Shown: positions 6,061 to 26,529 of the stretch, piece by piece | Layout: each line of letters opens with the position of its first letter | Numbering within the stretch: the stretch's first letter is position 1 | Assembly: GCA_021827605.1 (NCBI GenBank) | Contig: JAKAVF010000006.1 | Coordinates: 1 to 46,640, forward strand | Length of the DNA: 46,640 bases | Origin: Microcaldota archaeon | Lineage (GTDB): Archaea > Micrarchaeota > Micrarchaeia > Micrarchaeales > Micrarchaeaceae | Reading direction: 5' to 3' | Notes under the pieces: model-generated | What the model saw: the letters and a program-made list of their open reading frames with translations, nothing else | Told to the model about the DNA's origin: nothing | The model's database searches: none | Translations under genes and position numbers: made by a program

Positions 6061-6135
6061 TGAGCCTGGCGGGATTTGAACCCGCAACCATCTGGTCCGA
6101 AGCCAGACGCGCTATCCAAGTTGCGCCACAGGCCC
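6061..6135 (-). tRNA. tRNA-Arg (anticodon TCG)
   Basis: Full cloverleaf on the minus strand: acceptor GGGCCTG/CAGGCTC with one G-T pair, anticodon loop CTTCGGA in a TCTGG/CCAGA stem, T-arm GCGGG-TTCAAAT-CCCGC, discriminator A, no encoded CCA. No intron. The right-hand end of the tnpB element lies only about 25 bp upstream of its 5' end. A TATAAA lies 4-10 bp upstream, too close for a normal archaeal tRNA promoter. Confidence 0.95.
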
Positions 6136-6202: not shown

Positions 6203-7414
6203 TCATGCAATCACTGCATCCTGCAAAGGATGTGTTTTATCGGTTCTCAGTTCTTCGAGAACTGCCTCCTGATGAGGTCTTACACTCTCTCCCTGAGCGT
6301 GACTTCCCCTCTGTCCGAGGGTAGCTCTGTTGAGTATGTTTATACTTGCATTTATATCCCTGTCCTTCTGCATACCGCATCTATTGCAGATGTATGTTCT
6401 TTCCGAGAGTGGCATTTCCTGAATATTGCCACAGTTACTGCATTCCTTTGAGGTATTTCTTGCATCCACTCTGATTATCTTCATACCAGCACTTTCAGCC
6501 TTGTATGAGAGCATTTGGATAAACCTGTTCCATGAAGCGTTTTGTATTGACTGTGCAAGATTGTGGTTCTTTACCATGTTCTGAATATGAAGATCTTCCA
6601 CTGCGAATGAGGTATATCCTGAATTGATTAGAGTGTCTGAAAGTTTATGCAGGTAGTCATCTGACTGGTTTGTGGAATATTCGTATGCCTTTTGAAGATG
6701 CATCTTCGCTTTCTCCCTTCTCTTTGAGCCTTTGTTCCTTCTTGCAACAATCCTTTGCCACATTGCGATATGTTTCTCTGCCTTCTTTGCAAACTTTGGT
6801 TTCCCTACTTTTGTTCCGTCAGACAATGCGATGAAGGAATTGAGGCCCATGTCTATGCCGACAGGATTGGTGTTCTTGACCTCTGGGACTTTGATGTTTT
6901 TTATGGTAGTGAAGACTGCATAATAATTTCTTCCTTCCCTCTTTATCGCAAGCGTCTTTATTGTGCCTTCTATCTTCCTGTGAAGTTCAATTCTCATCGT
7001 GCCTATCCTTGAAACCCGTAGTCTATCCTTCCTTATTGAGAAAGAACCATTGTCTTGCGGGTATGTTATCGACTTATATCTGTCCCTTGACCTGAATCTT
7101 GGAAATCCTGCCTTCCTGTTTCCTTCCTTTGTCCTCCTGAAGAAGTTCTGGTATGCCTTGAGAAGCCTGAATTCTATTTCGCATCTTGTCTGCGAATACA
7201 GTTTCAGGTATTTCTTGTCTTCTTGGATTATCTCTTTCACGAACCTGTTGAACTGTGCCATTGAAACTTTTGTCTTTCTGTTTTGGTATGATGCGATTGA
7301 CTTCTCAAGAATCCTGTTGTAGAACTGTTGTGCAAGGATTAGCCTTTCATCTATTTCTTCCTGCCTTGTGGCATCAGGGTAGATTCTGAACTTGTATGCT
7401 CTTGTCAGTTCCAT
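6203..7414 (-). CDS. tnpB: TnpB RNA-guided endonuclease (IS200/IS605 family)
   Basis: Transposon-encoded RuvC-like nuclease, the ancestor-type of Cas12. At 403 aa it is full length. An N-terminal OrfB helix-turn-helix region covers about 1-50. The RuvC catalytic acids are all present: D188 in GIDMG, E273 in VEDL, D353 in DRDINAS. The zinc ribbon is C325/C328 and C343/C346. The frame is intact, so the nuclease may be active. ATG at 7414 follows a strong GGGGAGGT ribosome-binding site, unlike the GGTGA type used by host genes here, consistent with transfer. Known TnpB proteins cut the empty donor site and so keep the element; that role here is inferred. Confidence 0.93.
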   Translation of the reverse strand: MELTRAYKFRIYPDATRQEEIDERLILAQQFYNRILEKSIASYQNRKTKVSMAQFNRFVKEIIQEDKKYLKLYSQTRCEIEFRLLKAYQNFFRRTKEGNRKAGFPRFRSRDRYKSITYPQDNGSFSIRKDRLRVSRIGTMRIELHRKIEGTIKTLAIKREGRNYYAVFTTIKNIKVPEVKNTNPVGIDMGLNSFIALSDGTKVGKPKFAKKAEKHIAMWQRIVARRNKGSKRREKAKMHLQKAYEYSTNQSDDYLHKLSDTLINSGYTSFAVEDLHIQNMVKNHNLAQSIQNASWNRFIQMLSYKAESAGMKIIRVDARNTSKECSNCGNIQEMPLSERTYICNRCGMQKDRDINASINILNRATLGQRGSHAQGESVRPHQEAVLEELRTDKTHPLQDAVIA

Positions 7415-22528: not shown

Positions 22529-22616
22529 GGGGCCATCTGCTAGCCTGGTAGGCTTCGGGCATGGGGTGCCTGAGACCCGAGTTCAAAAGCAATGGCTGAA
22601 AATCTCGGTGGCCCCA
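22529..22616 (+). tRNA. tRNA-Pro (anticodon GGG) with a 15-nt intron in the T-loop
   Basis: Acceptor GGGGCCA/TGGCCCC, anticodon loop ATGGGGT in a CGGGC/GCCTG stem, discriminator A. Between the T-stem halves CCGAG and CTCGG there are 22 nt instead of 7. Removing 22588-22602 restores the consensus loop TTCAAAT. The junctions form a bulge-helix-bulge: TTCA pairs with TGAA, with 3-nt bulges AAA and AAT. A TATA-like AT-rich stretch lies at about 22500-22510. Confidence 0.93.
22588..22602 (+). other. Archaeal tRNA intron (tRNA-Pro, position 59/60)
   Basis: 15-nt insert in the T-loop with its own bulge-helix-bulge motif. Predicted cuts follow the second base of each 3-nt bulge. Same design as the T-loop intron in tRNA-Ser. 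Confidence 0.85.
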
Positions 22617-22650
22617 AATTTAAAGATGCACCGGAAAGAAAGTGAAGCTA

Positions 22651-23373
22651 ATGGACGAAGAAATCAAGGAAAACGAAAATGAACTGGCGCAGAACGCCGA
22701 TATCGTGAGCGCAGAAGCTCCAGAAACCGGGCAGAGCGCAGGTGAGAACGGCCTTCTTGCCGGGCAGAACGATTACCTTGAGGTTGGAGTGCACATTGCA
22801 ACAAAGGTCAAGAGCGCCGGGATGAAGCGATTCATCTACAAGGTCAGGGAAGACGGGCTCTACCTGCTGGACCTGAAGACCATAGACCAGAAGATAAGGG
22901 TAGCGGCATTGATGATTGCAAGATATGACCCAAAAGACGTCGTTGTTACCGCTTCGAGGATATATGCGATAGTCGCAGCAGAGAAATTCGCAAGCATAAT
23001 CGGAGCGAAGTTCATAAAGGGCAGAGTCACTCCTGGAATATTCACGAACCCGCACAGGTCAGACTACATGGAGTCCAAGCTGATAATGATCAGCGATTCA
23101 AGGAACGAGAAACAGGCGATAAAGGAGGCTAGCATGAAGAACATACCAATAGTCGCGCTGAGTGACACCGACAACTCGACGAAGTTCGTAGACCTGATTG
23201 TTCCGGCAAACAATAGGGGGAGGAGGTCGCTCGCATTCATCTATTACCTGCTCGCAAGGGAAGTGCTAAAGGCCAGAGGGGACATAAAAAGCGACTCAGA
23301 GTTCAAGTATAGCCTTGATGAGTTTGAGGCAAAGAGCGAAGGAAGACCTGTAGTGCAGCAGATGCAGCAATAG
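22651..23373 (+). CDS. rps2: Small-subunit ribosomal protein uS2
   Basis: 240 aa with an acidic N-terminal extension of about 40 residues before the S2 core (LEVGVHIATKVKSAGMKRFIYKVREDGLYLLDLKTIDQKIRVAA). Conserved GRVTPGIFTNP and VALSDTDNSTKFVDLIVPANNRGRRSLAFIYYLLAREVL are present. ATG 22651 follows GTGAAGCTA. The enolase gene commonly found before S2 in archaea is not here. Last gene of the rpoD-S2 cluster. Confidence 0.97.
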   Translation: MDEEIKENENELAQNADIVSAEAPETGQSAGENGLLAGQNDYLEVGVHIATKVKSAGMKRFIYKVREDGLYLLDLKTIDQKIRVAALMIARYDPKDVVVTASRIYAIVAAEKFASIIGAKFIKGRVTPGIFTNPHRSDYMESKLIMISDSRNEKQAIKEASMKNIPIVALSDTDNSTKFVDLIVPANNRGRRSLAFIYYLLAREVLKARGDIKSDSEFKYSLDEFEAKSEGRPVVQQMQQ

Positions 23374-23394
23374 TTTCCATTCTGATCCTTAAAA

Positions 23395-23490
23395 GGTCGC
23401 AACGGAGCGCCAATGAAACTTGTGGGTGAAAGCCTCGACAGAGGCGTCCGCGTCTCGTTGCGATGTAGCACACATTTCACTGTGCTACAA
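23395..23490. ncRNA. Two adjacent perfect hairpins, possible structured RNA or bidirectional terminator
   Basis: Between the convergent S2 and UbiA genes. TCGCAACG (23397-23404) pairs with CGTTGCGA (23456-23463), enclosing an inner GCCTC-GACA-GAGGC hairpin. Directly next, TGTAGCACA (23464-23472) pairs with TGTGCTACA (23481-23489) over an 8-nt loop. Strand is unknown. The tandem stems followed by an ACA trinucleotide are reminiscent of H/ACA guide RNAs, but no target was identified. Confidence 0.4.
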
Positions 23491-23561
23491 TAATATATGG
23501 AAGGCAGAAATATTTACGCCTTCTCCGTATATATACGCATTTCTGGGCAGTTGCACTGCTG

Positions 23562-24437
23562 TCAAACATAGGCGCCGATATACAGGATTGGTGCAAGAAG
23601 GAACGCAACAAGCGCAATCCCCATCCCAGCGAGGCTCAGGTTCCTGGAAAGGTCAAAGAACCTCCTGTTGTCCTTGTTCATGTAGCCGAAAGCCACGTAC
23701 GCGAACATCAGGTTTGCGATCGTGACGAGAATGAGGTATAAGAAATTGTACTTGAAGGGATAGTCATAGAAGAAGAGGAAGATGCCTATCCCTATCGCCT
23801 CGACATAGAGAATTAGCGCGATTGTCGCAGACTTCTTTACTCCGATATACCTTATCAGGTTCCTTGCCCCCCTTACCTTTATGTCGCCAGACCTGTCCCG
23901 TATCATCCCATGTATCTCCCGCGCCAATCCGCTGGAGAATACAATGAACGATATCAGCACTATGCTTATGCTTATGGTATCTGATACAACTATGTTCCCA
24001 AAGATGAACGGAATAACCATGGAGAAGGCGACATAGACGTTGCCGACAAGCAGCATGTCCTTCATCCTTTCCGCGTAGAGATAGGCCAGCACGGCAAACA
24101 AGAGTGCAATGACAAATGCGTACATGTTGATAAATGCGCTTGCAATTATCCCAATCGCAAAGCTCACGATCGCCACGTAATATGCGCCGCTCCTGCTTAT
24201 TGCGCCAGAGACTATCGGCCTGTCCGTGCGCCTGTTCGCCCTGTCGGTCTCAACGTCAAAATAGTCGTTGATTGCAAACGCACCCATGCTGACGAAGAAA
24301 GGCGTAACCAGCGACAGTGCGAATATCGGAAGCTGCGGTATGCCGCCGCTTATCAGCTCCGCGGCAACCACGGCTATTATCAGAAGCAGCGAATGCTCAA
24401 TGCGCGTCAGTTTCACCACGGCGCTCAAAAGGTTCAT
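23562..24437 (-). CDS. UbiA-family prenyltransferase (possible DGGGP synthase)
   Basis: 291 aa, nine or so membrane helices. First Asp-rich motif NDYFDVETD (57-65) followed by RTDRPIVSGAIS; second motif IRDRSGDIKVRGARN near 180. These bind the Mg-prenyl diphosphate. In archaea the commonest UbiA enzyme is geranylgeranylglyceryl-phosphate geranylgeranyltransferase, which adds the second ether-linked chain of membrane lipids. That assignment is inference; quinone or other UbiA roles remain possible. It is 23 bp downstream of the HerA-like gene on the same strand. Confidence 0.85.
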   Translation of the reverse strand: MNLLSAVVKLTRIEHSLLLIIAVVAAELISGGIPQLPIFALSLVTPFFVSMGAFAINDYFDVETDRANRRTDRPIVSGAISRSGAYYVAIVSFAIGIIASAFINMYAFVIALLFAVLAYLYAERMKDMLLVGNVYVAFSMVIPFIFGNIVVSDTISISIVLISFIVFSSGLAREIHGMIRDRSGDIKVRGARNLIRYIGVKKSATIALILYVEAIGIGIFLFFYDYPFKYNFLYLILVTIANLMFAYVAFGYMNKDNRRFFDLSRNLSLAGMGIALVAFLLAPILYIGAYV

Positions 24438-24460
24438 GGTAGACTTATACAGAGCCCGCT

Positions 24461-26278
24461 TTAAAATTGTTGCGCTTGGCCGGGACGGTCAGCCCCGATG
24501 CGATGAAAACCCCCCGCAAGTTCACCGAGCTCGCTGAATTTCAGTATGTGGATGTTGCCACCACCAAAGCTGCTTGCGTATCTCTGGTAGTGCTCGTCAG
24601 CGACGAATACGTATACCTCTTTGTATGCGCTCGACCTCCTGCTGAGCATCTCGCGGGTGCTGCCATCTGGCTTGCTCCCGGTCTCATACTCGATAGCCGC
24701 TTTCCATCCGTTCGCGAATCCGATTATATCGGGCTTATTGGTGCCATTAACCGTTATCACGTTTGGCACGCCAAGGTTCTTCAGCCCGTCCGATATCTTC
24801 CTAACGTAAACCTCATGCTGGACCGAAAGGTTCCCCCTCCTCGCCATGCACCAGAGCTCGTCGTTTCCGTCAGCCTTCCATTGGAGTGTGCTGATTCTTC
24901 CATCAGAGACGAGTGCATCAAGCTGCGCTTCGGCCTCCTTCCCAAACTTTCCAACGAGCGCATTCTTGGTCGTTGGCTTGTATGTGAACGCAATGATGTT
25001 GTCTATGAGCTCCCCCGCCTTTTCATCCTTCGCGGATCCAAGTTCTGTAAGTTTCGATATGACCTCTGCTGCTGTCTTGGTTTTTACCAGCGCAGGCGCG
25101 GAGAAGCCGGCTTTCATCATGAGCGCCTCATGCTTTCCAAGGCTCATCATCCTCTGCCGTACCCTATCCATTATCTCCCTATGCCCTCCACCGAGCAGGC
25201 TTGCCACATATTCAACCTCCTCAGGCTCTCTAGAGTAAAAGCTGATGAACGTTGATGAGTTAGCAACTATCTGCCTGTCAAGGTTGCTTGCAGAATGGGT
25301 GGCGACTATTAGGCCTACACCGTATTTCCTGCCCTCCTCGATGAGCCGCCTTATCATCTCCCCAGTTCCATTTCCGCTGCCGATCAGGGACTGTGCCTCG
25401 TCTATCATTATGTAGTGGCGCACGCCCCGCTCCTTCTCGTTGTCCTTCATCGAGACGTAGAGCCTTTTTAGCATTTCGCTGATGTATATAGTGCGCGCCT
25501 CCTTGTTCTTAAGTTTCGCCAGGGAGAACGAGAGCACGGAGTTCTTCAGGTCTTCAATCTCGATGAAGTTTCCGTTGAAAGCGGGGCTGTTTAAGGGAAG
25601 GAACTTGCTGCGCATGCTGCGCAGGCCCTGGCGCTCTGTGGCGCTTTTTGAGAGCTTCAGGAAGACGGTAAGCTCGTCAACGAGGTCAGAGATTGTCGGG
25701 GTCTGCTTTATCACCATCGCAGTCTTGCTCGGCGCACCGACCTTCCTGTAAGTGTACCAAAGGCATACTGCAAGGAGCGCAGATTGGAGGTTCCCAAGGT
25801 TGTAGACCTCGGTGAACAGGTTTGTAAGGTCGCTTATCCTGTCTGCAACGCTCATCCCGTCGAGGGCGAATATGTTTATCCCGGCATGGGCTGCGCTGAG
25901 CACCTTCCCTCCAGCGCTTTTTATCGCGTCGCCGTGCTCGTTGTGGACGTCGAACACCATCATCTTCCTGCCGGTTCCGCAGATCTCGAATATCAATGAC
26001 TTGCAGAGCGTGCTCTTGCCATAGCCGCTCATCCCGACTATCAGGATATGGGGGTTCGGCTCCTTCTCGAGGTCGAGCACTGCCTTTCCGGAGTGCGGCC
26101 TCCAGCGCCATTCGCTGGTGGAATTCGCCATTGCGAAACCGCTCCCGGCTCGCCTCAGCACTTGCACCCTCTTTTCTGCAAGGCGTTCCTCAAATCTTCC
26201 TACCATTATCATGCCTGCGTCCGCAGGCTTTTTCCTATTGCCTATTGCTTGTTTCACGAATTTCGATAGATCAAACAT
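24461..26278 (-). CDS. HerA/VirB4-like ATPase with winged-helix and nuclease-like C-terminus
   Basis: 605 aa from ATG 26278 after a perfect GGTGATTTT. Walker A GMSGYGKST (82-90), Walker B MIDEAQ (291-296) and a sensor-like ATHS (326-329) place it with HerA/TraG/VirB4 hexameric DNA or protein pumps. Residues about 405-485 look like a winged helix (ALVGKFGKEAEAQLDALVSDGRIS). The last domain (486-585) has PDIIGF (516-521) and AIEYETG (528-534), the spacing of a PD-(D/E)xK fold in which the Lys is replaced by Glu. Known for plasmid/virus-type or repair ATPases; the role here is unknown. Its promoter region is divergent from tRNA-Ser. Confidence 0.75.
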   Translation of the reverse strand: MFDLSKFVKQAIGNRKKPADAGMIMVGRFEERLAEKRVQVLRRAGSGFAMANSTSEWRWRPHSGKAVLDLEKEPNPHILIVGMSGYGKSTLCKSLIFEICGTGRKMMVFDVHNEHGDAIKSAGGKVLSAAHAGINIFALDGMSVADRISDLTNLFTEVYNLGNLQSALLAVCLWYTYRKVGAPSKTAMVIKQTPTISDLVDELTVFLKLSKSATERQGLRSMRSKFLPLNSPAFNGNFIEIEDLKNSVLSFSLAKLKNKEARTIYISEMLKRLYVSMKDNEKERGVRHYIMIDEAQSLIGSGNGTGEMIRRLIEEGRKYGVGLIVATHSASNLDRQIVANSSTFISFYSREPEEVEYVASLLGGGHREIMDRVRQRMMSLGKHEALMMKAGFSAPALVKTKTAAEVISKLTELGSAKDEKAGELIDNIIAFTYKPTTKNALVGKFGKEAEAQLDALVSDGRISTLQWKADGNDELWCMARRGNLSVQHEVYVRKISDGLKNLGVPNVITVNGTNKPDIIGFANGWKAAIEYETGSKPDGSTREMLSRRSSAYKEVYVFVADEHYQRYASSFGGGNIHILKFSELGELAGGFHRIGADRPGQAQQF

Positions 26279-26318
26279 AAAATCACCTGTTAAAAGAAAA
26301 GGACGAGAACCGCCAAGC

Positions 26319-26330
26319 CTTATAAATATT
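26319..26330 (+). promoter_or_regulatory. TATA box of tRNA-Ser
   Basis: CTTATAAATATT ends 20 bp before the mature 5' end of tRNA-Ser, normal for an archaeal tRNA promoter. It lies 41 bp from the start of the divergent HerA-like gene. Confidence 0.65.
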
Positions 26331-26388
26331 GGTCGGTAAATCATTAGCGTGCCAGGGTGGCAGAATCCGGTAATGCGCCGGTCTTGAG

Positions 26389-26428
26389 TTTTCAAAACAT
26401 CAAGAGCTGATTAGTGATGCAAAAAGAA
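26389..26428 (+). other. Probable anticodon-loop intron of tRNA-Ser
   Basis: About 40 nt after position 37. It contains CATCA/TGATG (5 bp) as an internal stem. The pairing CTT/AAG next to the splice sites gives only a relaxed bulge-helix-bulge, so exact ends may be off by a few bases. Confidence 0.6.
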
Positions 26429-26460
26429 AACCGGTGCCCCTCGGGGCTTTAGGGTTCAAA

Positions 26461-26479
26461 AGCGGGCAACTGCTGAAAT
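26461..26479 (+). other. T-loop intron of tRNA-Ser (position 59/60)
   Basis: 19 nt with a textbook bulge-helix-bulge: T-stem TAGGG/CCCTA, 3-nt bulges AAA and ATT, central helix TTCA/TGAA, inner stem GCGG/CTGC closed by a GCAA tetraloop. Same position and central helix as the tRNA-Pro intron. Confidence 0.88.
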
Positions 26480-26529
26480 TCCCTACCCTGGCGTACAATG
26501 TCTGCGATAGCGTTAGCACTCTAAAAATA

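Follow-up and report, generated by a model that had tools for sequence, protein, structure and literature searches.

Two tRNA genes, for Pro(GGG) and Ser(TGA), in a 46,640-nucleotide stretch of Micrarchaeota DNA (hereafter the window) are interrupted in their T-loops by short inserts. On the comparative sequence evidence set out below, we are highly confident that both inserts are archaeal bulge-helix-bulge (BHB) tRNA introns at position 59/60, probably excised by the endonuclease that the window itself encodes and joined by RtcB. A broader reading, which we favour with moderate confidence, is that the T-arm is an old, order-wide intron hotspot: an intron with a TGAA half-site would have been copied unchanged among Arg, Ala and Ser tRNAs, and tRNA-Pro would often hold two introns (53/54 and 59/60) with a six-nucleotide exon between them, its release probably following a set order. 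The window is contig C51 of a 971-kb Micrarchaeota genome bin, approximately 92% complete and probably mixed, and its host lineage is ARMAN-2-like; the uS2 gene of the window shows up to 94% identity to ‘Candidatus Micrarchaeota’ and ‘Micrarchaeaceae’ assemblies. The features discussed are collected in table 1.

Table 1. Features of the window and tRNA-Pro loci of related genomes with two T-arm introns.
Feature	Position	Strand	Basis
tRNA-Pro(GGG) gene, one T-loop intron	22529..22616	+	cloverleaf with paired acceptor and T stems; Pro(GGG) call after splicing; orthologue of uS2-linked Pro tRNAs
59/60 intron of tRNA-Pro, 15 nt, AGCAATGGCTGAAAA	22588..22602	+	TGAA 22597-22600 pairs with TTCA 22582-22585; covariation across relatives
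tRNA-Ser(TGA) gene, two introns	26351..26493	+	cloverleaf; Ser(TGA) call after T-loop insert removal; both introns in L048
37/38 anticodon-loop intron of tRNA-Ser(TGA), 40 nt	26389..26428	+	read from sequence and exon placement
59/60 intron of tRNA-Ser, 19 nt, AGCGGGCAACTGCTGAAAT	26461..26479	+	inner hairpin GCGG-GCAA-CTGC; TGAA 26474-26477 pairs with TTCA 26455-26458
Epsilon-type (three-unit) tRNA splicing endonuclease, 384 aa	30312..31466	+	546.6 bits to ARMAN-2 enzyme 4FZ2/9W2K; PF01974, PF02778
Double T-arm tRNA-Pro loci (53/54 + 59/60)	L053, L061, L062, L063, L073, L078, L081, L199-L218

The two T-loop inserts share one layout, running from the T-stem through TTCA, an AAA bulge, the intron hairpin, TGAA and an AAT or ATT bulge back into the T-stem. 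The Pro T-arm comprises CCGAG (22577-22581), TTCAAA (22582-22587), T60 at 22603 and CTCGG (22604-22608), and that of tRNA-Ser comprises TAGGG, TTCAAA (26455-26460), T60 at 26480 and CCCTA. ARAGORN and Rfam miss both genes in their unspliced form; with the T-loop insert removed, both genes receive the correct call (the spliced copies were read from loci L098 for Pro and L047 for Ser, at the same genome positions). A preliminary description of the window had placed inserts of 15 and 19 nt at 59/60 of these tRNAs, and the coordinates and spliced tRNA calls prove it right to the base. The 4-bp TTCA/TGAA helix with its 3-nt bulges, and the TTCAAAT left on removal, are confirmed in both genes, and the pairing of residues 54-57 with the TGAA of the intron supports the proposal that the T-loop provides the exon half of the BHB motif. 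The 40-nt anticodon-loop insert of tRNA-Ser, together with its 19-nt T-loop insert, likewise supports the suggestion that one transcript is spliced twice. The central helix of the anticodon-loop intron has three of four pairs (CTTG/AAAG), making it a relaxed BHB, and a paralogous Ser(CGA) gene on contig C4 has the same kind of anticodon-loop intron.

The anticodon loop and the T-loop each consist of 7 nt closed by a 5-bp stem. By this geometry, 59/60 corresponds in the T-arm to the canonical position 37/38: the intron falls between loop residues 6 and 7 in both loops, and in both, the 3' part of the intron would be the pairing partner of residues 1-4. L199, a tRNA-Pro of a different family in the class, can be read as having TTGG/CCAA in the anticodon loop and TTCA plus TGAA in the T-loop, and appears to contain three introns, at 37/38, 53/54 and 59/60.

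Repeated A residues make three Pro cut sites, 57/58, 58/59 and 59/60, compatible with the window sequence taken by itself. We compiled 96 distinct T-loop inserts, most of them detected by a model or scan biased towards the motif. A58, A59 and T60 are invariant across this set, all four bases occur at the first intron position, and the 3' bulge reads AAT, AGT, ATT, ACT or TAT. Since variation starts after nucleotide 59 and stops before T60, the 57/58 and 58/59 alternatives are removed; cutting at 59/60 alone restores the regular TTCAAAT throughout (TTCGAAT in one Ala). The 4-bp central helix is complete in 96% of the inserts, a set mostly selected in favour of the motif, compared with 1.8% when the intron letters are shuffled, and its 3' strand is TGAA in 83, TGGA (with a G-U pair) in 9 and GGAA in 4. 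Covariation supports the flanking helices of the BHB intron, with a score of 0.449 for 22 aligned T-arms versus 0.148 after shuffling (0/500 shuffles reaching the observed value); three pairs of the inner helix were counted in these T-arms, and all three show changes on both sides. Minimum-energy folds contain the central helix in only 12 of the 96 cases, usually preferring a 6x6 internal loop, and the BHB form costs a median of 1.1 kcal/mol over the minimum-energy fold. As energy folding so rarely yields the central helix, we left it out of the case for the BHB; the helix may need the enzyme in order to form.

Of the relatives with this region, nearly all have tRNA-Pro upstream of uS2; the T-loop insert differs among them in both length and sequence, with its layout conserved. 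In a second assembly (L048), whose uS2 is 94% identical to that of the window, the Pro intron is identical and the Ser T-loop intron changes from GCGG/CTGC to GCAG/CTGC, preserving the inner stem. Orthologous Pro genes at L049, L050, L051 and L052 are intron-free and have the T-loop TTCAAAT. L050 and L054 are sisters (100/99 support) with identical Pro exons, the sole difference being one 14-nt insert at 59/60 (L054). Mapped onto a tree built from four concatenated proteins, the Pro 59/60 intron requires at least three changes, be they gains or losses. These comparisons bear on the possibility that the inserts are mutations in silent or decaying pseudogenes, with intact copies elsewhere serving the cell. 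An incomplete and apparently mixed bin leaves room for an unseen intact copy, but targeted searches, extended to the stretches surrounding their matches, did not find in it the second Pro(GGG) or Ser(TGA) gene that the preliminary description named as a refutation. The exons are also intact and the introns are retained across many genera with compensatory changes, so that decay of the two genes is very unlikely.

The window endonuclease aligns over residues 2-384 with residues 2-387 of the ARMAN-2 enzyme 4FZ2 (64% identity). The catalytic residues Y236, H251 and K282 of the ARMAN-2 enzyme, and K161 of its ARMAN-specific loop (ASL), are conserved as Y234, H248, K279 and K159 in the window protein. 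The ARMAN-2 protein is a homodimer active on relaxed motifs (PMC6379350), canonical and relaxed motifs are both cut (PMC6379350, PMC4033280), and epsilon-type endonucleases have broad substrate specificity (PMC6379350; PMC12397907). By this homology, the window's enzyme very probably removes both T-loop introns. From the anatomy, conservation and covariation observed here, the intron-free orthologues with the same mature T-loop and the presence of both enzyme genes, we infer the following course for the cutting, joining and folding of the Pro and Ser RNAs. In the precursor, the TTCA of the T-loop would pair with a TGAA close to the intron's 3' end, placing the central helix between the T-stem and the short intron hairpin. 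The endonuclease would then cleave each 3-nt bulge between its second and third nucleotides, and RtcB would link A59 to U60, with release of the intron. As long as the intron is in place, the T-loop would be without its contacts to the D-loop, so splicing would have to precede final folding. Alternatively, the insert could stay in the mature tRNA as an enlarged T-loop; folding does predict a stable extended hairpin. We consider this more improbable still, since a retained insert would destroy the conserved D-loop/T-loop contacts, whereas removal gives a regular T-loop of the kind seen in the intron-free orthologues, and an endonuclease of broad specificity is present.

The genome bin encodes RtcB in four genes (G000 contigs C20:576-1880, C7:385-1689, C8:30439-31743 and C18:14793-16550), with mutual identities of 61-74%. 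Among congeners, RtcB is single copy in 11 of the 12 with a match; the twelfth has two partial hits and one further congener has none. Given four genes against one in congeners, we read the bin as probably a mixture of contigs from related genomes. Genome-wide tRNA counts are unreliable in such a bin, and we gave up stating a number of intron-bearing tRNAs for the window's genome. The RtcB of C18 (L193:14652-16553) has an intein-like insert (PF14890, TIGR01445, TIGR01443) and is flanked by Leu(CAA) and Ser(CGA) tRNA genes, both with T-loop introns. The bin also contains tRNA fragments or degenerate copies (C24:201-220 and 1168-1187, C10:18654-18712, C45:4025-4094 and C30:4497-4584), comprising the 3' ends of two Asp tRNAs, Asn-like pieces and, for Leu(CAG), a 3' part that lacks a matching 5' half; these are possibly integration scars.

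The preliminary description had also proposed scanning the tRNAs of the whole genome for 59/60 inserts ending in TGAA-N3. As a bare pattern (TTCAAA-N(5-35)-TGAA-NNT), the motif is at background in this genome, with 17 matches versus 21 for a reversed control; the motif is significant inside a cloverleaf, and the case accordingly rests on cloverleaf context and on relatives. A covariance model (R1) built from 22 T-arms gives at most 17.6 bits for intron-free T-arms of the window's genome versus 30.9 to 42.9 for intron-bearing matches; it misses some true cases, and the Ser gene of the window is absent from its matches. With R1, the motif was detected in 79 of 85 genomes and all 27 genera of the family (E <= 0.05), in 149 of 164 genomes of the order (E <= 0.005) and in 201 of 301 genomes of the phylum. 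That the T-loop inserts arose by chance or misassembly is a negligible prospect, already refuted by other assemblies: the bare motif may be no commoner than its reversed control, but both introns recur at the same loci in L048 and the motif is present in those 201 of 301 phylum genomes.

Carriers among the sampled matches spliced in silico were Arg(TCG, TCT and CCT), Ala(GGC), Pro (GGG or AGG in the ARAGORN calls) and Ser. The T-loop inserts of two Leu(CAA) genes, L087 and L094 (G000 C18:14353-14450 and C32 near 1700), measure 13 and 15 nt and are better matched by a register-shifted BHB (GTTC/GAAC or GTTC/GAGC) than by TTCA/TGAA. The tRNA-Arg(TCG) of the window (6061-6135) is intron-free, and the Arg(TCG) genes of L057, L059 and L076 have a 59/60 intron. 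Adjoining the window's Arg(TCG) gene is an ORF on the minus strand (6203-7414) that by eye resembles a TnpB/IS605-type protein.

Some of these introns share sequence across isotypes. The stretch ATAAACTTTTGGAAAAAGTTTAATCAAAA occurs in the introns of both L148 Ala(GGC) and L170 Arg(TCG), and a Ser(CGA) of the window's bin (L100) has nearly the whole of it. Eleven cross-isotype intron pairs have a 12-mer in common where shuffling predicts 0.1; neither the Pro nor the Ser intron of the window was found in this shared set. Such identical stretches in different isotypes make it likely that T-loop introns have moved between tRNAs in this lineage. One intron with a TGAA half-site would suit many tRNAs unchanged because many T-loops begin with TTCA. 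The earlier proposal that any tRNA could accept such an intron thus stands as far as the site is portable (Pro, Arg, Ala, Ser and, in variant form, Leu, with introns shared between isotypes), but ‘any’ is too strong, as few isotypes recur and A57 may be favoured. A57 is found in 95 of 96 insert-bearing T-loops versus 59 of 75 intron-free T-loops counted, a difference to be read as suggestive, given that the isotypes depend on one another and that the search model is itself tilted towards A57. For these biased, non-independent samples, we dropped the idea of a strict A57 requirement. In tRNA-Arg(CCT) of L084 (G000 C47:5077-5191), an intron in the anticodon region resembles the shared T-loop intron sequence (AAACTTTTG...ATCAAAAG); from this likeness, one intron family may use both sites.

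A signature of two T-arm introns in tRNA-Pro, at 53/54 (CCCG/CGGG) and 59/60, was found in 40 of the 301 genomes, spanning 24 genera, and the reversed pattern in none. All 20 loci checked have the full double-intron layout, with the six-nucleotide exon TTCAAA between the introns. The 53/54 half-site uses the 5' strand of the T-stem, so the T-stem needed for the second motif would form only afterwards, which suggests ordered splicing of 53/54 and then 59/60. Closely set introns, one of which needs removal before the next motif can form, have been acknowledged before (PMC8450103).

The preliminary description called the position unusual. For archaea this does not hold: 59/60 is a listed non-canonical tRNA intron site (PMC4090602), and the permuted tRNAs of Thermofilum pendens and Cyanidioschyzon merolae are joined there (PMC3218864). 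Non-canonical introns are richest in Crenarchaeota and Nanoarchaeota, and several introns per tRNA are known (PMC4090602). The introns described here match the known archaeal 59/60 introns in position, BHB geometry and enzyme class, and differ in being regularly present across one Micrarchaeota order, where several isotypes have them. Permuted tRNAs have a BHB at the same T-loop junction, but their 3' half lies upstream of the 5' half, whereas the window genes contain a plain intron insert; a permuted or split tRNA was rejected, since the Pro and Ser genes are both in normal order. Disrupted, multi-intron tRNAs and an epsilon2 endonuclease have been reported for ARMAN-1 and ARMAN-2 (PMC4033280, PMC6379350, PMC12397907), the same lineage with the same enzyme type. 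As relayed in PMC4033280 and PMC4090602, intron transposition in Thermoproteales (Fujishima 2010) left similar introns in different tRNA species; the likeness here, as far as those accounts go, is of similar introns across tRNA species, in Micrarchaeota T-loops. Neither the recurrence across the order nor the sharing of introns nor their pairing in the T-arm was found described in the literature surveyed, whose scope did not include the primary 2011 ARMAN-2 paper.

Position and mechanism are therefore already known, and the two introns of the window alone change little. Their surroundings are well suited to studying the spread of tRNA introns: the same exon half-site occurs in many tRNAs, presence and absence can be traced gene by gene over hundreds of related genomes, and the enzyme at hand has a close relative with a solved structure. 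Because standard finders, here ARAGORN and Rfam, overlook such genes, Micrarchaeota are likely to appear to lack tRNAs that they in fact encode.
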